Shown one piece after another: positions 5,142 through 19,189 of a DNA stretch of 64,000 bases (the stretch's first letter is position 1; each line of letters starts with the position of its first letter). The notes under the pieces were generated by a model that was not told the origin of the DNA, searched no databases, and saw nothing but the letters and a program-made list of their open reading frames with translations. Origin of the DNA: Faecalibacterium sp. I3-3-33 (GTDB lineage Bacteria > Bacillota > Clostridia > Oscillospirales > Ruminococcaceae); NCBI RefSeq assembly GCF_023347295.1, contig NZ_CP094469.1:1116001-1180000 (forward strand). The letters run 5' to 3'. Both the position numbers and the translations under genes were made by a program.

Positions 5142-6485
5142 TCAATAGCGGCGGTGGATCTTTTTGGTGGGCTTGCGGCGGTTCCAGTTGGCGCACAGCA
5201 GCCACAGCCCGTAGATCAGGGCGGCGATCAGGCTGAGCACCAGCACCACCTTCAGGTACAGGCTGGTGAAGAACTCCTTCACCTTGTCCACCCCGAACAG
5301 CAGCGGGTTGCGGGCTACGTCCTGCCCGGCGATCAGATCGACCACGCCGATGGTCTCGCCCGCCAGCTTCAGTTCCACCGTGCCCACTACATCGCCCTGC
5401 TGGATGGGGGCGCAGACGTAGTCCGGCAGGTGGAAGTATTTCTGGGTGACAGTGCCGTCGCTGGTGGAGGGCAGCAGGGTCATCATGCTGTCGTTGGGGT
5501 ACAGCTGCAAGGTGTCGGTGTCGGAGGAATACTTTACCGGGATCTCTGCAATGGTCAGGTCGGTGTCCAGCGCAGCCTGAATGGAAAAGCTGTCGAACAC
5601 CCAGTCCATCAGCTCGACCGTCTCGAACAGGGCAGGGCGACGGTTGGCGTAGCCAAGGGTATCGCAGCTGTCGGGGCTTTCCATCACGCAGAAGATATAG
5701 GTGGCACCGTCCTTGTTGCCCCACGAAACATAGCTCTGGGTGCCGGTATCGTTTTTAAAGGCGGTCACGCTGCACATACCGCCCTGCATGGCGCTGCGGT
5801 AATAGCCGCCGCCGCTGCCCTTGCTCAGCGCGGCGTTCTGGCTGACCAGCACCGAGGAGGAGCGGTGCTTCTCCTTGGCGGGCATGGTAAAGCTGGGCGC
5901 ACCGGATACTTCCACAAAGGCGTCAAAGCTCATCAGGTAACGCAAGATCAGGTACATATCCACGGCGCAGGTGGTGTTGCCGCTGTCGATGCCGCAGGCG
6001 TCCGTCCAGCTGCTGGCGGTGGTGCCGATGCGCTGGGACAGGGTGTTCATCTGCGCCACCCAGCCGTCCAGATCGCCGCCGGAAAGGGTGTACGCCACAC
6101 CCATGGCCGCTTCGTTTGCGTTGCGGGTAAGCATGGCGTACATGGCCTCGCGGTAGGTGAAAGTCTCGTTGGAGCGCATATCCGCGTTGTCAGTCTTGAA
6201 AACATAGTCCGAGATGGCAAAGGGCATCTGGAAGGTGCTGTCCAGCTGGTCGGCGTAGTTGGTCAGCAGCACGGCAAGGGTCATATATTTGGTCAGACCG
6301 CCGGCAGATACCTGCTTTGTGCTGTCCTTATCATAGACGATGATGTTGGTATCCGTGTTCACGATATAGGCGCTTGCAGCCTGCACCTGATACACCGGGC
6401 TGGGGTCGAACATGGCCCCGGCGGGCAGCACAAGGCAGCTGAGCAGGAATACAAGCGAGAGAACCAGTGCAAAAATACGTTTCAT
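5142..6485 (-). CDS. DacA-like (peptidase S11 fold) exported membrane protein with degenerate catalytic motifs
   Basis: The 447-residue protein has a signal peptide (MKRIFALVLSLVFLLSC), an S11 D-alanyl-D-alanine carboxypeptidase-like domain (about 35-300), a DacA-style beta domain (about 310-395), and a C-terminal transmembrane helix with an R/K-rich tail, as in low-molecular-weight penicillin-binding proteins. All three active-site motifs are altered. The SxxK box reads A-G-G-L-T-K with Gly63 in place of the nucleophilic serine. The SxN box reads N122-A-N. The KTG box reads Q234-G-G. It is probably a non-catalytic member that binds peptidoglycan or partner proteins. The start at ATG 6485 follows AAAGGAATT; a start 72 bp upstream was rejected because the signal peptide begins at MKR. 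Confidence 0.8.
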   Translation of the reverse strand: MKRIFALVLSLVFLLSCLVLPAGAMFDPSPVYQVQAASAYIVNTDTNIIVYDKDSTKQVSAGGLTKYMTLAVLLTNYADQLDSTFQMPFAISDYVFKTDNADMRSNETFTYREAMYAMLTRNANEAAMGVAYTLSGGDLDGWVAQMNTLSQRIGTTASSWTDACGIDSGNTTCAVDMYLILRYLMSFDAFVEVSGAPSFTMPAKEKHRSSSVLVSQNAALSKGSGGGYYRSAMQGGMCSVTAFKNDTGTQSYVSWGNKDGATYIFCVMESPDSCDTLGYANRRPALFETVELMDWVFDSFSIQAALDTDLTIAEIPVKYSSDTDTLQLYPNDSMMTLLPSTSDGTVTQKYFHLPDYVCAPIQQGDVVGTVELKLAGETIGVVDLIAGQDVARNPLLFGVDKVKEFFTSLYLKVVLVLSLIAALIYGLWLLCANWNRRKPTKKIHRRY

Positions 6486-6558
6486 GTGGACAATTCCTTT
6501 AAAAAGCGATAAAATATACGAGATACGGCTGCGCAGTGCGGCGCGCCGGAAGATCAAT

Positions 6559-6587
6559 TTTGCAGCAAGTGTGCTGTGTTCTATAAT
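6559..6587 (+). promoter_or_regulatory. Promoter of the metallophosphoesterase/glycosyltransferase/acyltransferase group
   Basis: TTTGCA and a perfect TATAAT (6582-6587) have a 17-bp spacer. Its -10 overlaps the -10 of the divergent DacA-like promoter. Confidence 0.65.
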
Positions 6588-6614
6588 AATAACAGGTTTG
6601 CCGGGGTGTTACAA
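6586..6614 (-). promoter_or_regulatory. Promoter of the DacA-like gene, overlapping the divergent promoter
   Basis: On the minus strand TTGTAA (6614-6609) and TATTAT (6591-6586) have a 17-bp spacer. The two divergent -10 boxes share bases 6586-6587, so RNA polymerase cannot occupy both promoters at once. Confidence 0.6.
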
Positions 6615-6665
6615 GAGCCTTGCGGTGTTTTACACCGTTCTTTCGCTCCGGCAGGGAGGGCAGGA

Positions 6666-7358
6666 ATGGTATATCTAACAGGGGACACCCACGGCGATAT
6701 CCAGCGCTTCAAGCAGGGCAAACTGCGCTGGCTGGGCAAAAAGGACACCGTGGTGGTGCTGGGGGATTTTGGTTTTGTGTGGGACGGCAGCGCCGCAGAG
6801 CGCAAGCGGCTGGACTGGCTGCGCAAGCGCCCCTACACGGTGCTGTTTCTGGACGGCAGCCACGAAAACTACGACCTGCTGGCACAGTACCCGGAGACGG
6901 AGCTGTTCGGCGGCAGGGTGCAGAGCCTTGGCGGCAATGTGTACCATGTGTGCCGGGGCAGCGTGCTGGAGCTGGAGGGCAAAAGCTATCTCTGCTTCGG
7001 CGGCGCGGAAAGTCAGGATAAGGACGACCGGGAGCCGGGTGTGAACTGGTGGAAACAGGAGATGCCCAGTGACGAGGAGTACGACACCTGCCGCCGCAAC
7101 TTAGAGGCAGCAGACTACAAGGTAGATTATGTGCTGACCCACGATGCACCAAGCAGATTTTTGGATTTTACCGCCCTTGCCCTTGGCGAGAGCAACCGTC
7201 TGCACCTGTTTCTGGACGAAATACTGCTCAAACTGACCTACGAAAAATGGTTTTTTGGCTGCTATCACAAGGATGTGCAGCTTTCCACCAAGAGCCGGTG
7301 TGTGTTCTGCGATGTCATCCCTATGGGTGAGCGGCGCACCGGGCTGTTCCACCGATAG
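6666..7358 (+). CDS. Calcineurin-like metallophosphoesterase
   Basis: This 230-residue protein has the ordered metallophosphatase motifs: GDTHGD (about 6-11), LGDFGFVWD (about 34-42), GSHEN (about 67-71), a later THD (about 158), and GCYH near 197. These residues would bind two metal ions and hydrolyse phosphomono- or diesters in the cytoplasm. The start is ATG 6666, directly after a GGGAGGGCAGGA ribosome binding site. The glycosyltransferase begins eight bases after its stop, so the two are almost surely cotranscribed. The substrate is unknown. Confidence 0.85.
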   Translation: MVYLTGDTHGDIQRFKQGKLRWLGKKDTVVVLGDFGFVWDGSAAERKRLDWLRKRPYTVLFLDGSHENYDLLAQYPETELFGGRVQSLGGNVYHVCRGSVLELEGKSYLCFGGAESQDKDDREPGVNWWKQEMPSDEEYDTCRRNLEAADYKVDYVLTHDAPSRFLDFTALALGESNRLHLFLDEILLKLTYEKWFFGCYHKDVQLSTKSRCVFCDVIPMGERRTGLFHR

Positions 7359-7366
7359 GAGGGAAT

Positions 7367-8392
7367 ATGCAGGTTACAATAAAACTTGCCACCCGGGAAG
7401 GTGCGGCGCACATCAGCGGCATTCTGGCGGGCTTTATCCTGCTGGCAAAGCGCGGGGAACTGACTTTGCGGGTGCAGGACGAGCGGCAGGGCAGCCCCAT
7501 TGCCCGGGAGGCGCTGCTGGAAACGGAAATCGACGGCCGCACGGTGGTGTTCGATTTGATGGATGGCTACTTCTATAATGACCCCGCAGCGGTGCAGGCA
7601 CTGTTCCACCGGGCAGATGTGGTGTTCAAGCGCTCTTTTTCGGCGGAGAAAAACCGGCAGTTCCCGGGCGATATCCCCGCAAAGCTGCGGCCATTGGGGC
7701 TGAACTACTACGTTACCTGCCCGGGCTCGCCGCTGGATGCGGAGCACAGCGCAAAGAGTCGCCTGAAGCAGTGGGCGCTTTCCACCCGCTGCTACCCGCA
7801 GGACTTTGAAGCCCGGCTGACCCGGGTGCGCAAAAAGCCGCGCATCCTCTTTCTGACCCGTCTGTGGGACCCGGAGGAACCGGCGGTGCAGCAATACCCG
7901 GCCTTGCAGGCAGAGTGGCGGCAGGTGAACGCGGACCGCATCGAGCTGCTGCACCGGCTGCAAAGCGCCTTCCCGCAGCAGTTCACCGGCGGTGTGTCGG
8001 ACAACGCCTGCGCCCGGCGGCTGTGCCCGGAGCTGATTTTGCCGGACAAGCTGACCGGAAAGCGGGCGTATCTGCACCGGATGCAGCACACGGAAGTTTG
8101 TGTGGCGTCTACCGGACTGCACGGCTCTACCGGTTGGAAGCTGGGCGAGTATGTGGCAGCGGGGCGCGCCATCGTTACCGAGCCGCTGCGGTATACCCTG
8201 CCGGGCGGCTTTGAAGAAGGCAAAAACTATAAAACGTATACCTCCCCGGCAGAGTGCGAGGAGAAGCTGCGGCAGCTGCTGGCAGACCCGGCGGCGATAC
8301 TGGCTATGGCACAGCACAATGCGGCGTATTATCAGGCATGGCTGCGGCCGGAGCAGCAGGTGCGGCAGGCTTTGCGGCAGCTGGAGAGATAA
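7367..8392 (+). CDS. Glycosyltransferase-like protein (GT-B, family 1-like C-terminal half)
   Basis: The 341-residue protein has no clear N-terminal family match by eye. Its C-terminal third resembles the nucleotide-sugar binding half of GT-B enzymes: CVASTGLHGSTGWKLGEYVA, then a proposed glycan-binding turn and a short helical tail. It is preceded by AGGAGGGA and followed after 11 bp by an integral-membrane acyltransferase. This suggests the pair glycosylates and acylates a surface polysaccharide or lipid. Donor and acceptor are unknown. The family call is moderate because the canonical E-x7-E motif is not cleanly visible. Confidence 0.6.
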   Translation: MQVTIKLATREGAAHISGILAGFILLAKRGELTLRVQDERQGSPIAREALLETEIDGRTVVFDLMDGYFYNDPAAVQALFHRADVVFKRSFSAEKNRQFPGDIPAKLRPLGLNYYVTCPGSPLDAEHSAKSRLKQWALSTRCYPQDFEARLTRVRKKPRILFLTRLWDPEEPAVQQYPALQAEWRQVNADRIELLHRLQSAFPQQFTGGVSDNACARRLCPELILPDKLTGKRAYLHRMQHTEVCVASTGLHGSTGWKLGEYVAAGRAIVTEPLRYTLPGGFEEGKNYKTYTSPAECEEKLRQLLADPAAILAMAQHNAAYYQAWLRPEQQVRQALRQLER

Positions 8393-8403
8393 GGGAGCGG
8401 GGT

Positions 8404-9516
8404 ATGGAAGAACAAAAACGGCATAGCGGCTTTGAGACGATGCGCATCCTCAGTATGGTGATGATCGTGCTGATGCACGGCATCGGGCACGGCGGGCTGG
8501 GCAGGGCGGCACCACAGGGGTCGGCGGCATTCTGGATCTACTGGCTGCTGTTTATTCTGGCGCGTGTATCCACAAACTGCTTTGTAATGCTTTCCGGCTA
8601 TTATCTGTCGGAGCGCAAGGGGCCTGTTCATGCCGGGCGGCTGTTCCGCATCGGGGTACAGGTGTGGTTTTATTCCATGCTAACTTTCTGCGTTGCGGTG
8701 AAAGCGGGGGCGGTCCCGCTTTCGGCTGTTGCACTGCTCCGGGCACTTTTACCCCTTACCTCCAACGGCTACTGGTTTGCCTCGGCTTATTTTCTGATGT
8801 ACCTCTCAGTGCCGGTGCTGAACGTGGTGGTGCAAAGCCTTGACCGGCGGCAGTACAAAACGCTGCTGCTGGTGGCACTGCTGCTGCAAAGCGTGTGGGG
8901 CACGCTGTTCTACTGGGCAACGGATGCGACCTTTGTGAATAACGGATACAGCTTTATCTGGTTCTATATCCTGTATTTTATGGCAGCCTATTTCCGCAAA
9001 TACCGGGTGACCGTGCCCAGCGGGCTGTGCCTAGTGGCGTATCTGGCGGCTTCGGCGGCGGGGCTTTTCAACCGGATGCTGGCACTGCGGGTGGAAAACG
9101 CTCTGCACCTGAACGGCTTTGTGGATACCGTCGGCGGCTATCAGGCACTGGCTACGGTCATTGCTTCGGCAGCGCTGTTTTTGCTGTTCCAGAATATCCG
9201 CATCCGCTCGGACTACTGGCGGCGCTGGGTCTTTTTGCTGGCACCGCTGTCCTTCGGGGTGTACCTGCTGCACGACAGCGGTTTTACCCGGGCACTGCTG
9301 TGGCAGTGGGTAGATCTGCCCCGGTTCGGCGGGGCGTTGCTGCCCTCGCTGGCTTACCTGACCGGTGTGGTGCTGCTGATCACCGTGGCGGGCTACGCAG
9401 TGGCTGCCGTGTATCAGCGGCTCTACCGTCTGCTGCGCCTGCCCGCGCTGGAAACAAAACTGGACGCCCTGACCGCCCGCATCCTGCAAAGCGTTGTCGG
9501 GAGCAAAGAAGTGTAA
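8404..9516 (+). CDS. Acyltransferase 3 family membrane protein (OafA/WecH-like)
   Basis: This 370-residue protein has about ten membrane helices. It begins with the family motif region FETMRILSMVMIVLMHG, in which Arg and the following His belong to the acyltransferase-3 signature. Such enzymes transfer acetyl or other acyl groups across the membrane onto sugars of surface polymers. The start is ATG 8404 after GGGAGCGGGG; the preceding in-frame sequence overlaps the glycosyltransferase gene and was not used. It is the last gene of the three-gene unit and is followed at once by a strong terminator. Confidence 0.85.
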   Translation: MEEQKRHSGFETMRILSMVMIVLMHGIGHGGLGRAAPQGSAAFWIYWLLFILARVSTNCFVMLSGYYLSERKGPVHAGRLFRIGVQVWFYSMLTFCVAVKAGAVPLSAVALLRALLPLTSNGYWFASAYFLMYLSVPVLNVVVQSLDRRQYKTLLLVALLLQSVWGTLFYWATDATFVNNGYSFIWFYILYFMAAYFRKYRVTVPSGLCLVAYLAASAAGLFNRMLALRVENALHLNGFVDTVGGYQALATVIASAALFLLFQNIRIRSDYWRRWVFLLAPLSFGVYLLHDSGFTRALLWQWVDLPRFGGALLPSLAYLTGVVLLITVAGYAVAAVYQRLYRLLRLPALETKLDALTARILQSVVGSKEV

Positions 9517-9518
9517 AG

Positions 9519-9562
9519 AAAAGCGCTATCGCACGAGTTTTTTGTGCGACAGCGCTTTTTTA
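9519..9562. terminator. Bidirectional terminator between the acyltransferase gene and recG
   Basis: A long interrupted stem (AAAAGCGCT..TCGCAC with GTGCGA..AGCGCTTTTTT) ends both convergent transcripts. Its right edge overlaps the recG stop codon at 9560-9562. Confidence 0.85.
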
Positions 9563-11620
9563 GTTCATCGGCCCGGCCTTGTCGAACATCTGCTGCACCT
9601 GCGCGGCCAGCAAAGCGTGGGCAGGGCTTTCCAGCAGCGGGTCGGCGGCAAGCAATGCGGCGGCCTCGCTCTGGGCGGCGTGCAGGGTGCGGGTGTCGTT
9701 CATCAAATCGGCGATCTGCAAGGTGGGCAGGCCGTGCTGGCGGCTGCCGAAAAAGTCGCCGGGGCCGCGGGTCTCCAAGTCGTACTGCGCCACGGCAAAG
9801 CCGTCGGTGGTGGAGCAGAGAAATTTCAGCCGCTTCTGCACGGCTTCGCTGGTGTTGTCGCTGACAAGGAAGCACCAACTCTCGGTAGCGCCGCGTCCCA
9901 CACGCCCGCGCAGCTGGTGCAGGGCGCTCAGGCCGTAGCGCTCGGCGTTTTCAATCACCATCACGCTGGCGTTGGGCACGTCCACGCCCACCTCAATGAC
10001 GGTGGTGGACACCAGTGCGTCCAGCCGCCCGGCCTTGAAATCCTCCATGACGGCGGCTTTTTCCTTGGGCTTCAGCTTGCCGTGCATCAGCCCCACCCGG
10101 CGGTCGGGCAGCAGCGCCTTGGCGATGTCCTCGTAGTAGGTCTTGACGGCGTTCAGCCCGCCGTCCGGCACATCCTCGATGGCGGGGCAGACCAGATACA
10201 CCTGCCGCCCTTTGTCGATCTCGCTGTCCAGAAAGCGGTACAGGTCCCGCCGCCGCTTGCCGGTGATGCACCGGGTCTTGACCGGGGTGCGCCCGGGGGG
10301 CAGCTCGTCCAGAATGGAGATATCCAAGTCGCCGTAGATCAAAAGCCCCAGCGTGCGGGGGATAGGGGTGGCGCTCATGACCAGCAGGTGCGGGTTCGCG
10401 GCCTTTTCCGCCAGTGCGCCGCGCTGGCGCACCCCGAAGCGGTGCTGCTCGTCAATGACAGCAAGACCCAGCCGGGCAAACTCCACCCCTTCGCTCATCA
10501 GGGCGTGGGTGCCCACCACAAGGTCGGCTTCATCATTGCGGATGGCTGCCAGCGTGGTGCGACGGGCGGCGGCCTTCATGCCGCCGGTCAGCAGGGCCAC
10601 CCGCATCCCGAAAGGGGCAAGCAGCCGATTGAGCCCCTCGGCGTGCTGCGCGGCAAGAATCTCGGTAGGAGCCAGCAGCGCGGCCTGATACCCCGCCCGG
10701 ATGCACGCCCAGATGGCGGCAGCAGCTACCAGCGTTTTACCGCTGCCCACATCGCCCTGCAACAGGCGGTTCATGGCGGTATCGCCCGCCATATCGTTTA
10801 AAATCTCCTCCACCGCGCGGCGTTGCGCCCCGGTGGGGGCAAAGGGCAGGCTCTGCCAGAAAGGAGCAGGGTCGGCGCGGCGCATGGGGGCCCCGGTGGC
10901 CGCAGCGCCCCGGCTGCGCATCCGCCCAATGCCCAATTGCAGCACCAGCAGTTCCTCATAGATGAGCCGCCGCCGCGCCGCTGCGGCCTGTTCCTCGGTG
11001 GCAGGGCAGTGGATGGCGCGCACCGCTTCGGCCTTGGGGAGCAGACGGTATTTTTGCAGCATCTCCGGGGGCAGCGGGTCGGGCAGCAGCTCCGCATGGG
11101 GCAAAAGCTGCCGGATGCAGCGGGAGATGACGCTGCTGGACAGTCCTTCGGTCTGGGGGTAAACGGCCTCAAAGGGTGCGGCTTGTATCTGTTCAGCGGT
11201 GCGCACCTGCGGGTTGACCATCTGGCGGCGCAGCATCCCGCCGGTGACGATGCCCTGAAAATAGTATTCCTGTCCCAGCTGCAATTTCTGGGTGGCGTAG
11301 GGGTTATTGAACCATGTGATCTCCAGACTGGCTACATCGTCTCCGGCAGTGATGCGCTCCATCCGCCGCCCGCCCGGCAGAATGCGCCCGCCGGGCTTTG
11401 CAAACACTTCGGCCTTTACCACGCATTCGGTGTCGGCGGGGGCTTCCGCGATGGAGTAGGGCTTGGAAAAGTCGATGTACCGCCGGGGGTAGTGGCACAG
11501 CAGGTCTGCCAGCGTCACGATGCCCAGCTTCTCGAACCGCTCTGCGGTCTTGGGCCCCACCCCTTTCAGGTAGCGCACCGGGGTGTCCGGGGTCAGGGTA
11601 GTGCGGTTTTCGGTGGGCAT
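9560..11620 (-). CDS. recG: ATP-dependent DNA helicase RecG
   Basis: The 686-residue protein has the usual RecG length and order: an N-terminal wedge/OB region with a helix-hairpin-helix-like start (VRYLKGVGPKTAERFEKLGI), Walker A GDVGSGKT at 289-296, DEQH box at 390-393, SATPIPRTL motif III, and the C-terminal helicase motifs ending QLRGRVGRG. RecG remodels stalled replication forks and branch-migrates Holliday junctions. The ATG at 11620 follows AGAAGGGAGC. It is monocistronic, with a possible minus-strand -10 (TATACT) about 30 bp upstream. Confidence 0.97.
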   Translation of the reverse strand: MPTENRTTLTPDTPVRYLKGVGPKTAERFEKLGIVTLADLLCHYPRRYIDFSKPYSIAEAPADTECVVKAEVFAKPGGRILPGGRRMERITAGDDVASLEITWFNNPYATQKLQLGQEYYFQGIVTGGMLRRQMVNPQVRTAEQIQAAPFEAVYPQTEGLSSSVISRCIRQLLPHAELLPDPLPPEMLQKYRLLPKAEAVRAIHCPATEEQAAAARRRLIYEELLVLQLGIGRMRSRGAAATGAPMRRADPAPFWQSLPFAPTGAQRRAVEEILNDMAGDTAMNRLLQGDVGSGKTLVAAAAIWACIRAGYQAALLAPTEILAAQHAEGLNRLLAPFGMRVALLTGGMKAAARRTTLAAIRNDEADLVVGTHALMSEGVEFARLGLAVIDEQHRFGVRQRGALAEKAANPHLLVMSATPIPRTLGLLIYGDLDISILDELPPGRTPVKTRCITGKRRRDLYRFLDSEIDKGRQVYLVCPAIEDVPDGGLNAVKTYYEDIAKALLPDRRVGLMHGKLKPKEKAAVMEDFKAGRLDALVSTTVIEVGVDVPNASVMVIENAERYGLSALHQLRGRVGRGATESWCFLVSDNTSEAVQKRLKFLCSTTDGFAVAQYDLETRGPGDFFGSRQHGLPTLQIADLMNDTRTLHAAQSEAAALLAADPLLESPAHALLAAQVQQMFDKAGPMN

Positions 11621-11688
11621 GGCGTTTCAGCTCCCTTCTAAGCGTAGTATAGCCATTGTAACACGGACGGGGAACAGATGCAAACACT

Positions 11689-11717
11689 TTGCCTTTGTGC
11701 GGAAGCTGTGGTACACT
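11689..11717 (+). promoter_or_regulatory. Promoter of the GNAT gene
   Basis: TTGCCT and TACACT have a 17-bp spacer and lie 33 bp ahead of the start codon. Confidence 0.55.
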
Positions 11718-11749
11718 GGCAGCACAGAAAAAAGAGAGGAGAGAATCGT

Positions 11750-12274
11750 ATGGAAATACGCAATGCGACCATGGACGATCTACACGCCATTGCCGCCGTG
11801 GAGGCGGCCTGTTTTCCGGCAGCGGAGGCTGCCACGGCAGAAGAATTTGCCGGGCGGCTGGCACACTATGCCGATCATTTCTGGCTGCTGTTTGAGCAGG
11901 GGGAACTGGTAGCCTTTGTGGACGGCTTTTGCACCGACACGCCCGACCTGACCGATGCGATGTACGCGGACGCCGCCCTGCATGATGAAAACGGCGCATG
12001 GCAGATGATCTTTGGGGTGAACACCCTCCCGCGCTGCCGCCGCCGGGGCTATGCCGGGCTGCTGCTGCAAAGAGCCATTGCAGATGCCCGCGCGCAGGGG
12101 CGCAAGGGACTGGTGCTGACCTGCAAGGAGAAGCTTTTGCACTATTACGCAAAATTCGGCTTTGTGAACGAGGGCGTTTCCGCTTCCACCCACGGCGGGG
12201 TGGTGTGGTACCAGATGCGGCTGCGCATCTCATACGGGAACACCCTGCCCACGGAGTTTTGCCGCATGGTGTGA
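11750..12274 (+). CDS. GNAT family N-acetyltransferase
   Basis: The 174-residue protein has the GNAT fold signature: an N-terminal MEIRNATMDDLHAIAAVE start and an acetyl-CoA binding motif A near 93-103 (RCRRRGYAGLL, fitting R/QxxGxG/A). It is followed by the helix with ADARAQGRKGLVLTCK and a Y..FGF C-terminal element. It probably acetylates an amine on a small molecule or protein. AGAGGAGAG precedes ATG 11750. It is transcribed alone, with the next gene having an independent consensus promoter. Substrate not predictable. Confidence 0.85.
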   Translation: MEIRNATMDDLHAIAAVEAACFPAAEAATAEEFAGRLAHYADHFWLLFEQGELVAFVDGFCTDTPDLTDAMYADAALHDENGAWQMIFGVNTLPRCRRRGYAGLLLQRAIADARAQGRKGLVLTCKEKLLHYYAKFGFVNEGVSASTHGGVVWYQMRLRISYGNTLPTEFCRMV

Positions 12275-12353: not shown

Positions 12354-12381
12354 TTGACAGGGGCAAAGCAGGGGGTATAAT
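12354..12381 (+). promoter_or_regulatory. Consensus sigma-A promoter of the secreted-protein cluster
   Basis: Perfect TTGACA and perfect TATAAT have a 16-bp spacer. This is the closest match to consensus in the window and suggests strong expression of the 12.4-17.7 kb cluster. Confidence 0.8.
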
Positions 12382-12413
12382 AAAAGGGAGACAAAACAAT
12401 AGGAGGCATCTGT

Positions 12414-12869
12414 ATGAAACAGTCCACAAGACTTGTGCCCTTGGTGATGTTGCTGCTGTGGATGTTGTTGGCTCTGCCGGCAGCGGCAGCGGCTCCCGAG
12501 ACTACCGTGCAGCAAAACGGCATCTACACCATCTATTTTGAGACCGGCGGCGGTGTGGGGATCCCGGTGATCGCCAGCACTACCTCTACGGGCAGGCTGA
12601 ACTCTCTGCCCACCCCCACCATGTCCGGCTATACCTTCGAAGGCTGGTATACCGATCAGTTGGAAGGGGACAAGATCACTGTGAACACAGAGTTCGGCGC
12701 GGACACCACGATCTATGCGCATTGGGTGCCCAATGCCTCCGACAAGACCCCGGCGGTCACAAAGCCGGGCACTGCATCGACAGACGGCTTTGCGTGGAAG
12801 GCGCATGTTGGCACGATGCTGGTGGCAGGTACGATCCTGCTGACCATGGCCGTGCTGTATCTGCGCTGA
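12414..12869 (+). CDS. Exported protein with one InlB B-repeat (Listeria-Bacteroides repeat) and a C-terminal membrane helix
   Basis: The 151-residue protein has a signal peptide (about 1-26, cleavage near AAAAAPE) and a beta-rich domain (about 35-105) containing SGYTFEGWYTD followed by DTTIYAHW, the hallmark of the InlB B-repeat/Flg_new family. A short linker and a C-terminal hydrophobic helix (about 131-149) follow. It should face the outside, anchored by the helix. It is the first gene behind a consensus promoter, and 28 bp separate it from the double-glycine peptide gene. The function is unknown; B-repeats usually serve adhesion or protein-protein contact. Confidence 0.8.
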   Translation: MKQSTRLVPLVMLLLWMLLALPAAAAAPETTVQQNGIYTIYFETGGGVGIPVIASTTSTGRLNSLPTPTMSGYTFEGWYTDQLEGDKITVNTEFGADTTIYAHWVPNASDKTPAVTKPGTASTDGFAWKAHVGTMLVAGTILLTMAVLYLR

Positions 12870-12897
12870 GACGTTTCGTTCAGAAAAGAGGTATCTT

Positions 12898-13143
12898 ATG
12901 ATGAAGTATTCTGCCCAGACGATCCGGCTTCCGGCACAGTATGCTCTGCTGGCACCCGAGGAACAGGCTGCCGTGGCGGGCGGCGCGGGTTTTGCCGATG
13001 TGCTGAACAATATCAGCAAGATCAGTAAAGTATTCAACTATATGGCGCGCTTTTTCTCTTCCACCAGCGCCATGCTCAACAATTTTATCACAGCCTATAA
13101 CACCCTGCAGGATCTGAATAGTTATATCCAGAAAAATTTCTGA
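12898..13143 (+). CDS. Small double-glycine-leader protein resembling the N-terminus of F. prausnitzii MAM
   Basis: The 81-residue protein has no ordinary signal peptide. Its first 29 residues form a leader ending LLAPEEQAAVAGG, the pattern of peptides processed after Gly-Gly by peptidase-containing ABC exporters. The block LPAQYALLAPEE..V.GGA lines up with my memory of the start of the microbial anti-inflammatory molecule of Faecalibacterium (PANYSVIAENE..VNGGA). The released 52-residue part is an amphipathic, slightly basic helix-former. AAAGAGG precedes two adjacent ATGs (12898, 12901); the first is used. No matching exporter is in this window. A bacteriocin-like or surface role is possible; the function is unproven. 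Confidence 0.7.
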   Translation: MMKYSAQTIRLPAQYALLAPEEQAAVAGGAGFADVLNNISKISKVFNYMARFFSSTSAMLNNFITAYNTLQDLNSYIQKNF

Positions 13144-13271
13144 CAGGCTGCACTTGCGAAGTACGGCACCGGTGTTGCTACCAACACGGGTGTGCTGAAA
13201 ATATATCTTTTGCCCGGCAGCCAGAACCGGCTGCCATAGAACAGGTTTGCGATCCTGAGGAGGAAAACAAG

Positions 13272-14204
13272 ATGAAAAAAGCGTTCAGACTTTCCGCGTG
13301 GATCACGGCTGCGGCCATGGCGGTCAGCCTGCTGCCAATGGGGGCGTTTGCGGCTCCCGCAGCACCGGAGACCACCAACACCATTGCGGAGGGTGCGTAC
13401 ACAAAGGAAGGTACCCAGTGGTATGTCAGCTTCAATGATCTGGAGACAGAGGCGGATTACATCGTCATCGTCAGCCGCTCGGCAGAGCAGCCGCTGGCGG
13501 CAGAGAATCTGGTCTACCTGACCGAGACTGCTTCTACGGACACCGGCACGCTCACCGTGCCTTTCCGTGCGGCGGCAGAAGATATCCGGTACGCCGTGGC
13601 CTGCCGACCCGGCAAAATACCGGAAAGCCGCACCGTCCGGGTAAACGGCGGCACGGCCGACCTTGAACAGGCTGCTGCGGGCGCAGTGGTCACCATTACT
13701 GCACCGGCAGAGCAGGACGGAAAGCCCTTTGCCCGCTGGAAGGTGGAAGCCGGTGACATCACGCTGGCCGAGGAGACCGCCCGCCAGACCACCTTTGTAA
13801 TGGGCAGTCTGGATGTTGAGGTGACGGCGTGCTACGACACGAAGGACTCCCCCACCCCCGCCCCCGGCGGCGATGGAGACGGCGGCGGTGCGATCATTGC
13901 GTTGGCCGCAGGTGCGGCCGCTGTGGCGGTGGCAGTCGGTGTAGTGACTACTGTGGCACCGGTGGCTGTGCGGGGCAGGGTAGAGCTGGCAGATCATACC
14001 GTACCGGCCAACGCACGCATCTCGCTGCTGCAAGACGGCAAGGTGGTGGCGCAGACGACTGCCAACGCCGAGGGCAGCTTTGAACTGAAGGTCAAGCGCG
14101 GAAATTACGAACTGACTGCTGTTTATACGGATGCAAACGGTCAGCTTGTGCATAAGACGATCCAGATCAAGGCCCCGGTCAAGGGATTGACCGTGACCCT
14201 TTAA
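13272..14204 (+). CDS. Exported protein with divergent InlB-type repeat, glycine/alanine-rich membrane segment and carboxypeptidase-regulatory-like domain
   Basis: The 310-residue protein has a signal peptide (1-28) and a first beta domain (about 35-120). A divergent InlB B-repeat (about 121-190) is marked by GAVVTITAP, FARWKVEAG and TTFVMGSLDVEVTA. A Pro/Gly-rich linker (193-206) leads to an Ala/Val/Gly-rich hydrophobic stretch (207-233). The final domain (234-302) resembles CarboxypepD_reg/SpaA-type folds (VPANARISLLQDGKVVA..GSFELKVKRGNYELTA). If residues 207-233 span the membrane, this last domain would be cytoplasmic, which is odd for such a fold. AGGAGG precedes the ATG. It is the third gene of the cluster. 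Confidence 0.75.
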   Translation: MKKAFRLSAWITAAAMAVSLLPMGAFAAPAAPETTNTIAEGAYTKEGTQWYVSFNDLETEADYIVIVSRSAEQPLAAENLVYLTETASTDTGTLTVPFRAAAEDIRYAVACRPGKIPESRTVRVNGGTADLEQAAAGAVVTITAPAEQDGKPFARWKVEAGDITLAEETARQTTFVMGSLDVEVTACYDTKDSPTPAPGGDGDGGGAIIALAAGAAAVAVAVGVVTTVAPVAVRGRVELADHTVPANARISLLQDGKVVAQTTANAEGSFELKVKRGNYELTAVYTDANGQLVHKTIQIKAPVKGLTVTL

Positions 14205-14249
14205 GGCCGTCTCACAGCTTTACAGTAAGATAGAAAGGAATCCTGCCCT

Positions 14250-17200
14250 ATGAAGCGATTTGTTGCGGCGATCCTTGCGGTCGTTATGCTTTTGAGCACC
14301 TTTTCATTCACAGCGCTGGCAGCAGCCCCGGAGCAGCTGCCCCAGACCGGCCCGGCGGTACAGCAGCTGCAAACCACAGCGCTTCCGCCTGTCGGACTGG
14401 ATACCCGCCCCTACGCTGCTGCAATGGCGCAGCAGCAGACCGGCAAGCTTTCTCAGTCCACGACCAGCGACCAGCTGAGCATGACCGCCACCGACAGTCT
14501 GAGCGCCCTGCTGCTGGCGGGAATGCCGGACGCAGACCCGGACGCAGAAAACGGCGGCAGCGATGCCCAGAACTACCGGGTGATCGATGCAGGCGTAACG
14601 GGGCAGACCGCCACAGTGCGCTATTTTGCCGCCGGTACGGCAGACCTTGTGGTGGGCATTTACAGCACCGACAGCAAGCAGCTGCTGGCCAGCGGCACCA
14701 TACAGGTGGAGCAGACGGAGGAGACCATGGCGGAGATCCCGCTCACCGGCACGCTGCCCCAGTATTTTGTGCTCAAGGTATTTCTGCTGGACACGGAAGA
14801 GCACAGCGCCCTGAGCGATACTTATGTCAGCACCTTGTTCACCGAGGAAATGTCCGACCTGAAGGAGGCCAAGGCCAGCGACTTTGACCCGGAATTGGTG
14901 GTCAATCTGGACGAGCGGGACGACACGAACTTTGGTGTGGTGAAAGCCGATGTTGCACTGCTGGACAATGACGCGGTGGCACCCGACGAAAACGTCATCA
15001 CGCAGGACGCCGACAGCTATGTGTATACCGTTGAAAACCCCACCGAAGAGTTCCGGAACCTGCAGGAAGGCGATACCTTTGTTTACCACAGCCCGGAGGG
15101 ACTGCTGGTGGCCCGTGTGCAGGACATTCGGGAGGAAGGCGGCAAACTTGTCATTACTGGTGACGAGGAACTGGACATCCGGGATGTGTTCGACCTGCTG
15201 AAGATCGACAGCGATCAGGACAGCAGCGAATTCCACTATGTGGAGGGCAGTGCAGAGAGCGGCGCGGATGGCAGTGTGACCAGCAACGTGACCGTGCAGG
15301 AGTCTGCGATAGTGGATTTCTCGCCTGAGGCGCTGGAGTATACCGGCGAGGGCGCCGACGCCATCCATGCGGCTGCGGACGATGCAGAGGCGGACAACGG
15401 CTTTGTGGATGATCTGACGGAAGATATCGGCAACATATTTGAGCCCAAAAAGGACAACCAATCAAAGGAAAAGACTTTGAAGGTCCTGATGGACAAGGAG
15501 TACAAGAAGAAGTATACGGATGATCTGGAATACTCCGTCAAGCTGCATATTGATTCCAGTGTTGCAGTGAACGCAAACTTTGCCTACTATATCGCATGGG
15601 ACCGTGTGTATGTGGCAGGCTCGGCCGCACTGAGCATAAAGGGCGTTTACGGCGTGGAAGCCGATTTAAAAGCGACCGTAGATCTGGGCAAGTACGATGC
15701 CACCGATGTCATGACGGGCATCTCCTTTGGTGTTGCGGCAAGCATTGATGTGGAACTGAACGCTTCGGCAAATGTTACGCTGCTGACCACCGCAACCATT
15801 GGCGCTTCCTACCAGCTGGGCTATGGCTTCCGCAACCTGAGCAGCAACCCCTATTACCAGATGACGGCAGATGCCAATGTGGTGGTAAAGGCGACCCTGC
15901 ACCTGAGTCCGTATATAGGTGCAGCCTACAATCTGGTGCAGCTGTACTTCAACCTGAGCTTTGAAAATACCCTTACAGCCCATGCTATTTTCCGGGGAGC
16001 GGACTCGGAGGATGTGCCGGAATCCCGCGATGGCTGCGCCCCAGTGTGCTTTGCGTTCAATCTGCACATTACCTGTTCCGGCAACTTGCAGATCGGAATG
16101 CAGCTTGTCCCTGGAAAAGACGGAATTATGTTCGATCCCTTTACCCTGTGGAAGAACGCAGAACTCTTTGATGGCGATGCCTACTGGTCGCCCTTCCGCA
16201 AGGAGTTTGCCTTTACCAAGTGCCCCCACACGGAGTACCGTGTCACGGCAACGCTGGAAGGGGTAAACAACACCACCGCCCTGCCGCTGTACCTGCAAAA
16301 GGACGGCAACACCCCGGAACTCATCGGTGAGTGCACCTACGTCAACCCGACCAAGTTCTATCTGGAACACGGCGAAGCTTACCGCCTGTACTCGGTGGTG
16401 GACGGCGTGGTGTTTGCCACGGACGAGGAGTTCACGCTGGATAAGGCGCTGGAAGTCACCCTGACAAAGCACCCAGAGATCAGTCTGGACGACCTGCTCA
16501 ACAGCGGCCGTGTGGATGACGGCTCCAGCGATACCGGCCATATCACCTACACCTTCAACGAAAAGACCGGCACGCTCATCATCAGCGGCGAAGGTGCTAT
16601 GCCCAGTTTTGATACCGCAAACCATGGCATCCCTTGGCCGTGGGACAACAGCAAAATCAAAAAGCTGATCATCCGCGAAGGTGTGACAAAGATTGGCAAT
16701 CATGCATTTATGTATGCTGACGCCCTTACAGAAGTATATCTGCCGGAAAGCTTGAAAACCATTGGAGATCGTGGGTTTGGCTATTTCAACGCTTACAATG
16801 AAACTCCAACCGAAATCTATTATGCAGGCACCCGGAAGCAGTGGCGCACAGTAGGTGTTGTGGTCGACAGTTCAAAAGGATCTTATACAAATGCTGCATT
16901 CAAAAACGCTGTCAAGCACTGCACAGATGGCGATACCAACCTTCCGATGGCAGGCGGCAGCGGTACGAAAAATGACCCGTACCAGATTGCCACGGCAGAG
17001 CAATTAGATGCCATCCATGACTGGCCGACCGCTACATACTATGTGCTGGTCAATGATATCGACCTTTCCGGCATTGAGTGGGTGCCGTATAGCGGTTACA
17101 TCAATTTTGATGGACAGGGACACACGGTTTCCAATCTGACTATCATCAAAACGGATGTGAGCGGCGAAGCCAACATTGGCATGTTCGGCGCATTGTATTC

Positions 17201-17693
17201 GTACTATGACAACTATTATGCCGGTACGTTCCAGAGCCGGGTGAGTAACCTGAACCTGAAAGATGTGAACATTGATATTACCGGCACTGATGAAAGTGAG
17301 ACAGTGCTCAATGTTGGTGCAATCGTTGGCTTGAACAATGCCTCTAGTAACGATATCTATATCCAGAATTGCTCTGTCAGCGGCAGAATCAACGTACAAG
17401 GCGGCTTCCGCACATGGATCGGCGGCATTTCAGGTCGAGGCCAGCAGAATTGCCGCACCTATGTGCAGAACTGCACGAATAAGGCGGATATCACCTATAC
17501 ACGCGGAGAAGGCACTTACGAATGCGAAGTCGGTGCATTGCATGGTTTCCAGGCAGATGTGAGCGACTGCACCAACTATGGTACCATTACGGCCAACGGC
17601 AAGGGCATGGAAAGTTGTGTGCGTACAGTAGGCAGTGGCAACACCGACTACGGCAAAACAATCATCAACGGCGTGGAGCGCACCGCAGCATAA
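14250..17693 (+). CDS. Large secreted protein with BspA-like leucine-rich repeat and GLUG/beta-helix-like C-terminal region
   Basis: The 1147-residue protein has a signal peptide (about 1-26). Residues 30-430 form an acidic region with no family I recognise. Residues 430-720 are beta-rich, with alternating short hydrophobic strands. A leucine-rich BspA-type (LRR_5) repeat covers about 765-885 (LIISGEGAMPSF, then KIGNHAFMYA and LKTIGDRGFG). A stretch typical of GLUG/right-handed beta-helix proteins covers about 905-1140 (GGSGTKNDPYQIATAEQLDAI, DGQGHTVSNL, ANIGMFGAL). No LPxTG motif or C-terminal membrane anchor is visible, so retention would need another means. From about 16.6 kb the DNA is visibly more AT-rich than the first half, which suggests a mosaic origin. 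Confidence 0.8.
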   Translation: MKRFVAAILAVVMLLSTFSFTALAAAPEQLPQTGPAVQQLQTTALPPVGLDTRPYAAAMAQQQTGKLSQSTTSDQLSMTATDSLSALLLAGMPDADPDAENGGSDAQNYRVIDAGVTGQTATVRYFAAGTADLVVGIYSTDSKQLLASGTIQVEQTEETMAEIPLTGTLPQYFVLKVFLLDTEEHSALSDTYVSTLFTEEMSDLKEAKASDFDPELVVNLDERDDTNFGVVKADVALLDNDAVAPDENVITQDADSYVYTVENPTEEFRNLQEGDTFVYHSPEGLLVARVQDIREEGGKLVITGDEELDIRDVFDLLKIDSDQDSSEFHYVEGSAESGADGSVTSNVTVQESAIVDFSPEALEYTGEGADAIHAAADDAEADNGFVDDLTEDIGNIFEPKKDNQSKEKTLKVLMDKEYKKKYTDDLEYSVKLHIDSSVAVNANFAYYIAWDRVYVAGSAALSIKGVYGVEADLKATVDLGKYDATDVMTGISFGVAASIDVELNASANVTLLTTATIGASYQLGYGFRNLSSNPYYQMTADANVVVKATLHLSPYIGAAYNLVQLYFNLSFENTLTAHAIFRGADSEDVPESRDGCAPVCFAFNLHITCSGNLQIGMQLVPGKDGIMFDPFTLWKNAELFDGDAYWSPFRKEFAFTKCPHTEYRVTATLEGVNNTTALPLYLQKDGNTPELIGECTYVNPTKFYLEHGEAYRLYSVVDGVVFATDEEFTLDKALEVTLTKHPEISLDDLLNSGRVDDGSSDTGHITYTFNEKTGTLIISGEGAMPSFDTANHGIPWPWDNSKIKKLIIREGVTKIGNHAFMYADALTEVYLPESLKTIGDRGFGYFNAYNETPTEIYYAGTRKQWRTVGVVVDSSKGSYTNAAFKNAVKHCTDGDTNLPMAGGSGTKNDPYQIATAEQLDAIHDWPTATYYVLVNDIDLSGIEWVPYSGYINFDGQGHTVSNLTIIKTDVSGEANIGMFGALYSYYDNYYAGTFQSRVSNLNLKDVNIDITGTDESETVLNVGAIVGLNNASSNDIYIQNCSVSGRINVQGGFRTWIGGISGRGQQNCRTYVQNCTNKADITYTRGEGTYECEVGALHGFQADVSDCTNYGTITANGKGMESCVRTVGSGNTDYGKTIINGVERTAA

Positions 17694-17734
17694 ACATTTC
17701 TCAGCGATAAGGGAAAGCAGAAAACAGCCCCAAC

Positions 17735-17779
17735 AAAAAGAGATAGACTTCCCGGAAAGGGCGGTCTATCTCTTTTTTT
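17735..17779 (+). terminator. Terminator of the secreted-protein cluster
   Basis: A 14-bp arm (AAAAAGAGATAGAC) pairs with GTCTATCTCTTTTT and is followed by a run of T. It lies 41 bp past the stop of the 1147-residue protein. The bases between it and the next hairpin (17780-17886) hold nothing I recognise. Confidence 0.85.
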
Positions 17780-17886
17780 GTCATGAGCTGAAACTGCAAC
17801 AAAAACTTTTTTTTAATAAATAGCCAAAATAATGGAAATGTAAAGGCATGAGCCTTTGCCGCTGGCAGATAAAAGCATAGAATAAC

Positions 17887-19114: not shown

Positions 19115-19189
19115 TGGAGCTGGTGACAGGAGTTGAACCTGCAACCCACTGATTACAAATCAGTTGCGCTGCCATTGCGCCACACCAGC
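19115..19189 (-). tRNA. tRNA-Thr (anticodon UGU)
   Basis: The complete cloverleaf was read on the minus strand. It has a 7-bp acceptor (GCTGGTG/CACCAGC), a 4-bp D stem (GCGC/GCGC), an anticodon stem ACTGA/TCAGT with loop TTTGTAA giving anticodon TGT, a 5-base variable loop, and a T arm (GCAGG/CCTGT). The 3' CCA is encoded (19117-19115). It decodes ACA and other ACN codons. It is a single-gene transcription unit with its own promoter and terminator. Confidence 0.95.

Follow-up and report, generated by a model that had tools for sequence, protein, structure and literature searches.

A paired InlB-repeat protein and MAM-type-leader peptide in Faecalibacterium, its neighboring pilus loci and a diverged copy in a four-gene cluster

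The closest described system to the locus reported here is the MAM protein with its C39-peptidase ABC exporter (PCAT) (PMC8836110, PMC12184118). In the excerpts of these papers considered here, PCAT export is described for MAM alone, the envelope protein reported to be most abundant is MAM (PMC12184118), and the exporter lies beside Ig-like and HlyD-like genes in the MAM context (PMC8836110). The published survey of MAM relied on the strict MMMPAN motif, and the Gly-Gly leader consensus is given as hydrophobic at position -12, Glu at -8, Met/Leu at -7 and Val/Leu at -4 (excerpts of PMC12184118). We analyzed a 64-kb stretch of the Faecalibacterium sp. I3-3-33 genome (the window; G000:C1:1116001-1180000 of a single 2.99-Mb contig), in which a cluster of four plus-strand open reading frames (ORFs) is bounded by a consensus promoter on the 5' side and a strong terminator on the 3' side. 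Gene 1 encodes an InlB-repeat protein and gene 2 a small Gly-Gly-leader peptide, whereas genes 3 and 4 encode larger exported proteins. Like MAM in the excerpted descriptions (PMC8836110, PMC12184118), gene 2 combines this leader type and a small helical cargo with a single C39 exporter in the genome. Unlike MAM, its leader lacks the MMMPAN start, its mature part is unrelated, and it has an InlB partner gene, which is absent from the MAM context as excerpted from PMC8836110.

Other described systems share parts of the locus. Class II bacteriocins with an immunity gene have in common with it a Gly-Gly leader, a cationic amphipathic helix and a small gene pair. Unlike them, gene 2 matches no family model above cut-off, the InlB-repeat partner lies upstream of the peptide, and the pair is linked to pilus genes. 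The exported domain of gene 1 matches the Internalin B repeat (List_Bact_rpt, Flg_new), but gene 1 has one repeat on a C-terminal membrane helix and lacks the leucine-rich repeat (LRR) and GW parts. BspA LRR stretches occur in gene 4 and its fused relatives, as they do in BspA-like surface proteins, but in the window the protein is divided over two genes whose order is swapped. In its usual copy, the pair is immediately upstream of a SpaA-type sortase-dependent pilus locus, whereas window genes 1-4 include none of the pilus genes. To our knowledge, a PCAT-type peptide is not a known component of such loci. The exporter, leader type, InlB repeat and pilus are all of known kinds. Among the literature matches listed, in which preprints are hardly covered, titles and abstract starts contain no fixed pair with two cargoes and a pilus link, and no title concerns Faecalibacterium pili. 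A word search found no occurrence of 'InlB' in the main text of PMC8836110 or PMC12184118.

The InlB/Gly-Gly gene pair and its neighboring pilus loci

Comparison of 31 genomes of the genus revealed 15 small InlB genes (E below 1e-17) in 12 genomes. Every one of the 15 has a Gly-Gly gene next to it on the 3' side in the same orientation; with the start codons chosen, the two genes are separated by -4 to 62 nt. Because the regular expression that picks out Gly-Gly ORFs is permissive (it matches 38 of 1402 ORFs), the sites were cross-checked against a leader profile, and all 15 are in its list; that profile was built partly from the same pair leaders. The InlB search gave 23 matches. Eight were excluded, seven in frames of 698-1329 residues and one (G026:C120) with an in-frame stop. 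Seven of the eight excluded loci were rechecked and contain no plus-strand Gly-Gly-type ORF; the eighth match is a second stretch of a 784-residue frame in G016.

The pairs carry two types of cargo, which we call KVFNY (12 pairs, window included) and APAW (three pairs). Treating them as one family was rejected, as hhalign shows no similarity between the mature parts. The start of each APAW gene overlaps the stop of its partner by 4 nt. The three APAW pairs (L108, L109, L110) occupy one conserved place in three genomes, about 25 nt after a 461-residue gene that we take to be glmM-like; the gene on the 3' side is presumably lepA-like. No promoter of their own was detected at these three pairs.

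The KVFNY family has 14 loci in 13 of the 31 genomes. The search gave 22 matches; the eight that were not counted are mainly leader matches, one of them the APAW peptide of G008. From a separate search, leader-only matches in G010 and G011 were also excluded. The Gly-Gly site expected among homologues by the original prediction is kept at all 14 loci, and a partner InlB gene adjoins 12 of them. The named relatives of the peptide are all from Faecalibacterium (8/8 loci). The genome that contains the window has a second copy of the pair at C1:2231.5-2232.3 kb, whose partner is 39% and whose peptide is 37% identical to the window copy over the aligned parts. In 13 of 13 comparisons between two close relatives, the nonsynonymous rate (dN) does not exceed the synonymous rate (dS) for leader, mature part and partner, with the leader unchanged in one comparison. 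This indicates that the pair genes are real and constrained.

Most pairs lie next to a pilus locus. Ten of the 11 non-window KVFNY pairs, the second copy included, are upstream of a sortase-pilus locus, and the same proportion, with G015 as the exception, has a same-strand S26-like gene no more than 1.8 kb away. A pilin-backbone search gave strong matches in 10 genomes and a weak one in G020. Each of the 10 strong sites has a pair in the same orientation at a distance of 2.3-8 kb. The association of pair and pilus has a Fisher p of 2.5e-7, or 2.6e-6 if G020 is counted as piliated, both uncorrected for kinship. Upstream neighbors of the pair vary among genome groups; the pilus is constant.

On the 3' side of the second copy are genes for a coiled-coil-like protein, a Peptidase_S26 and an 1826-residue SpaA protein with an LPXTG anchor. 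Next come genes for a 497-residue pilin backbone, a sortase, which in our own reading is class C, and a 288-residue protein with a weak SpaA match and an LPQTG end. Pfam was applied to the pilus genes of this locus only; those of the other loci were recognized by protein similarity. The sole pilin-backbone match in this genome (C1:2240033-2240389) is outside the window. The sortase-pilus locus as a whole (G000:C1:2231000-2250000, L147) looks complete and has relatives in nine other genomes. Next to the window pair, positions 5142-12274 form a block with a 686-residue helicase gene, presumably recG. The block adjoins the pilus-linked pair of G009, G012, G027, G028 and G030 as well, but there the pair is at the other end of the block.

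Leader family, exporter and predicted proteins

The published MAM N-terminus, used as a query, matches seven places in the window's genome, including the gene 2 peptide (E 0.023, 35% identity). A profile of 21 leaders recovers the same seven places and matches the window leader with an E of 4.8e-9, which bears out the earlier proposal that this leader resembles the start of MAM. The seven are MAM itself (L014:6079-6516), two tandem pairs (L015, L017), the second copy and the window peptide. The tandem pairs (L015:6324-7147 and L017:4858-5809) encode longer MAM-leader proteins of 109-184 residues as listed, without a known family; similar tandems are found in L030-L032. The window leader RLPAQYALLAPEEQAAVAGG does not match the MAM motif MMMPANx(8,11)VxGG. 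Its residues L18 (-12), E22 (-8), V26 (-4) and G28-G29 (-2/-1) fit the PCAT-substrate pattern, and position -7 is Gln instead of Met/Leu.

The similarity to MAM does not extend beyond the leader. The mature parts give an hhalign probability of 0.5%, and the gene 2 peptide was rejected as a MAM homologue; this test is weak because it used one MAM sequence only, that of the same genome. The resemblance to MAM noted by the original prediction is supported for the leader but not for the cargo, and the best bacteriocin match of the peptide is sub-threshold (CTB family, 13.4 bits, cut-off 32). None of these cargo proteins matches a Pfam or NCBIfam model above its cut-off.

Leader-profile matches at E up to 1 occur in 29 of the 31 genomes, counted as totals given by the search program. 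Each of the 26 genomes in which C39 matches strongly has 3-10 MAM-type leaders, and 24 of them have 6-10. Among the five without one, G025 has four leader matches, G018 and G026 have one weak match each, and G019 and G020 have none. The C39 search points to a single place in each genome, matched as one stretch or two, and the domain is present in all 12 genomes that carry a pair. Searched against 396 genomes of the family, the KVFNY profile matched 11, six of them from the genus. The five matches outside the genus (G086, G209, G273, G321 and G396, from three genera) mainly cover the MAM-type leader, so the leader type extends further than the peptide.

The original prediction placed the exporter elsewhere, and indeed no C39 exporter is found within the window. 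The sole one found in the genome is at G000:C1:1322756-1323250, about 141-143 kb beyond the window end. It is a 778-residue peptide cleavage/export ABC transporter above the model cut-off, with the catalytic Cys14, His92 and Asp139 intact, and it adjoins Ig-like and HlyD-like genes. The C39 exporter frame at G028:C1:1947568 is open for 203 residues, compared to about 780 in related genomes, and is possibly broken.

The predicted mature peptide of gene 2 has 52 residues, a net charge of +2 and no Cys. Across the KVFNY family the mature part is 49-54 residues long. The best amphipathic stretch of the gene 2 peptide is beaten by 0.3% of shuffles over 18 residues and 2.3% over 45. In the structural model, residues 30-80 form one helix after a break at the Gly-Gly site (mean predicted local distance difference test score (pLDDT) 68, predicted template modeling score (pTM) 0.36). 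A fold search with this model gave 0 matches, and the best E in a PDB profile search was only 0.11.

Gene 1 contains an InlB/List_Bact_rpt domain (53.7 bits, Pfam cut-off 27, E 2.3e-14), and a profile search against the PDB matched Internalin B repeats (best E 5.5e-8). A signal peptide, recognized by sequence, and a C-terminal hydrophobic helix at residues ~128-150 are also present. The partner would expose its InlB repeat on the outer side of the cell, carried by a membrane helix. In the partner tree, the window copy groups with the APAW type (support 88/88), though on a long branch and not firmly. The window leader has 12 of 18 residues in common with one APAW leader, 8 of 18 with the other two and 6-8 of 18 with KVFNY leaders. 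Judged from these sequences, an exchange at the Gly-Gly site may have joined an APAW-like leader and partner to a KVFNY cargo in the window copy.

The window cluster and its surface-protein genes

The layout of the window cluster (Table 1) is as originally predicted: the four ORFs in a row, the promoter, which matches the consensus at 12/12 positions, and one strong terminator were all recovered. An exact TTGACA/TATAAT match with a spacing of 16-18 occurs once in the 64 kb, and 0 of 100 shuffles give one. The terminator was found by folding (-26.9 kcal/mol; 0 of 200 shuffles fold equally well) and has no entry in the consensus signal scan. That scan found no further plus-strand promoter in the gaps between genes 1-4, and the terminator script detected no terminator between genes 2 and 3, in contrast to most other pairs, which have one after the peptide gene. 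A single transcript for the four genes is plausible from these signals. The window-type promoter is not general. In the 160 nt on the 5' side of the partner gene in the 15 pairs, three others (G008, G015, G016) match at 11/12 positions and the remainder at 8/12 or fewer.

Table 1. Positions of the cluster features in the window.
Feature	Position	Strand	Evidence
Promoter TTGACA-16-TATAAT	12354..12381	+	12/12 consensus match
Shine-Dalgarno AGGAGG 5' of gene 1	12401..12406	+	Direct sequence reading
Gene 1, 151-residue InlB-repeat protein (partner)	12414..12869	+	PF09479, E 2.3e-14
Gene 2, 81-residue Gly-Gly-leader peptide, KVFNY family	12898..13143	+	14 family loci, dN below dS in relatives
Leader, residues 1-29, Gly-Gly end	12898..12984	+	MAM-type leader profile, E 4.8e-9
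Predicted mature 52-residue amphipathic helix, start AGFADVL	12985..13140	+	Structure prediction, hydrophobic moment
Gap between genes 2 and 3, hairpins without T tract	13144..13271	+	Folding, terminator script
Gene 3, 310 residues, exported; divergent InlB repeat, a hydrophobic stretch, CarboxypepD-like domain at the C-terminus	13272..14204	+	
Gene 4, 1147-residue exported surface protein, one BspA LRR stretch	14250..17693	+	
Intrinsic terminator, hairpin and T run	17731..17780	+	-26.9 kcal/mol, z -6.1

Genes 3 and 4 belong, as judged by sequence comparison, more with each other than with the InlB/Gly-Gly pair. The divergent InlB repeat of gene 3 is above the Pfam cut-off and its CarboxypepD_reg match is just under (31.6 bits, cut-off 32.3); the BspA LRR stretch of gene 4 scores 27.9 bits (cut-off 27.7). 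Single proteins with a gene-4-like part followed by gene-3-like parts are encoded in the same genome (L090, 1546 residues) and in G030 (L091, 1421 residues). The gene 3 regions represented in them are about residues 30-113, then 188/197-308. Given these fused proteins, genes 3 and 4 of the window look like a split form in swapped order.

The idea of a conserved four-gene cluster was rejected. Mostly partial matches to gene 3 (G000, G003, G012, G030) and gene 4 (G000, G005, G012, G030) are found in four of the 31 genomes each, and none is beside a pair, the window excepted. The original prediction also expected the peptide to work with the surface proteins around it. The neighborhood survey supports the co-location in part: the peptide family does neighbor surface-protein genes and its InlB gene is at 12/14 loci, but the four genes are not a conserved set.

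A phage or plasmid origin was rejected, with no relative found among viral contigs or in a plasmid collection; the search did not include the phage collection. The sole tRNA gene of the window, a tRNA-Thr on the minus strand at 19115-19189, lies 1.4 kb beyond gene 4. By eye, a tRNA-like reading frame is also seen on the 5' side of some pilus-linked pairs.

Proposed role of the pair and alternative explanations

The anatomy of the pair is well supported; its function we infer. The 81-residue precursor would be cut after Gly-Gly and exported by the one PCAT found in the genome, the route also proposed for MAM, and the 52-residue amphipathic helix would be retained at or near the cell surface. 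The membrane-held InlB-repeat protein may be a docking or chaperone partner that captures the peptide. At its usual locus the pair would serve sortase-assembled pili, and the diverged window copy would serve the split BspA/LRR-type surface protein of genes 3 and 4 from the same promoter. We tentatively favor this view of the pair, an exported amphipathic helix and a membrane-tethered partner serving adhesive surface structures, and hold it at slightly less than even confidence.

Several observations weigh against it. Of the 14 non-window pairs, 11 have a terminator 12-30 nt 3' of the peptide, and in most genomes the pair and the pilus therefore form distinct units; the terminator is at 120 nt in G015, and none was detected in the KVFNY or APAW pair of G008. 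G015 has a pair but no pilus, G020 has a weak pilin match but no pair, and the window copy has no adjoining pilus genes. Because the genomes are related, the linkage counts are not independent. Two KVFNY loci, L093 (G003) and L094 (G013), lack an adjoining InlB gene. In G013 the search at E 1e-4 finds no small InlB gene anywhere, which suggests that the partner is not always needed, and the InlB gene of G003 is beside its APAW peptide. The helix at residues 128-150 of gene 1 is seen in a low-confidence model (mean pLDDT 54). The partnerless copy in G003 has the same surroundings as the paired copies in G008 and G015, as if its partner had been lost.

The main alternative is that gene 2 encodes a bacteriocin similar to class II, which acts on membranes and leaves through the PCAT, and that the InlB-repeat membrane protein protects the producer as an immunity protein. 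A Gly-Gly leader, a small cationic amphipathic helix and a constant partner with two unrelated cargoes are consistent with this, as are sub-threshold matches to the CTB family and, for another Gly-Gly protein of the same genome, to a lantibiotic family (18.1 bits, cut-off 32.95). However, no bacteriocin family model in Pfam or NCBIfam is matched above cut-off, the peptide is retained without a partner in G013, the mature part is conserved with dN below dS in all 13 comparisons, and the pair is linked to pilus genes. We consider a bacteriocin unlikely. Gly-Gly peptides are often pheromones, and one APAW peptide weakly matches BriC, a peptide that regulates biofilms, below the threshold (14 bits, cut-off 120), which would fit a signal that regulates surface structures. 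The KVFNY mature part is rather long to be a pheromone, none of the conserved neighbors was recognized by eye as a kinase or regulator gene, and the partner has no evident cytoplasmic part; a signaling role is therefore very improbable.

The linkage itself is read differently if the pair functions as a free-standing export unit for an unspecified use, with neighbors set by inherited gene order or chance. The terminator between pair and pilus at most loci, the pair without a pilus in G015, the unrelated housekeeping-like genes beside all three APAW pairs and the absence of genes 3 and 4 from every other pair all argue for such a unit. Yet the pilus stays while the upstream neighbors differ between genome groups, and every strong pilus site has a pair (10/10). 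We regard an independent unit as rather improbable, and retain an accessory role in adhesive surface structures as the preferred explanation.

A broader arrangement is possible, though we hold it to be doubtful: one PCAT and the MAM-type leader may export a set of surface proteins, 6-10 in most genomes, rather than MAM alone, of which one branch would be a two-part accessory module of sortase pili that could be coupled to other adhesins instead, as the window would exemplify. MAM attracts study as one of the main anti-inflammatory products of a key commensal of the gut. Were a single PCAT to handle several leaders, its loss would strip the surface of many proteins in one step, and MAM phenotypes would need to be re-read accordingly. 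The pair links peptide export with pili in Faecalibacterium and hints at an undescribed part of its surface equipment.

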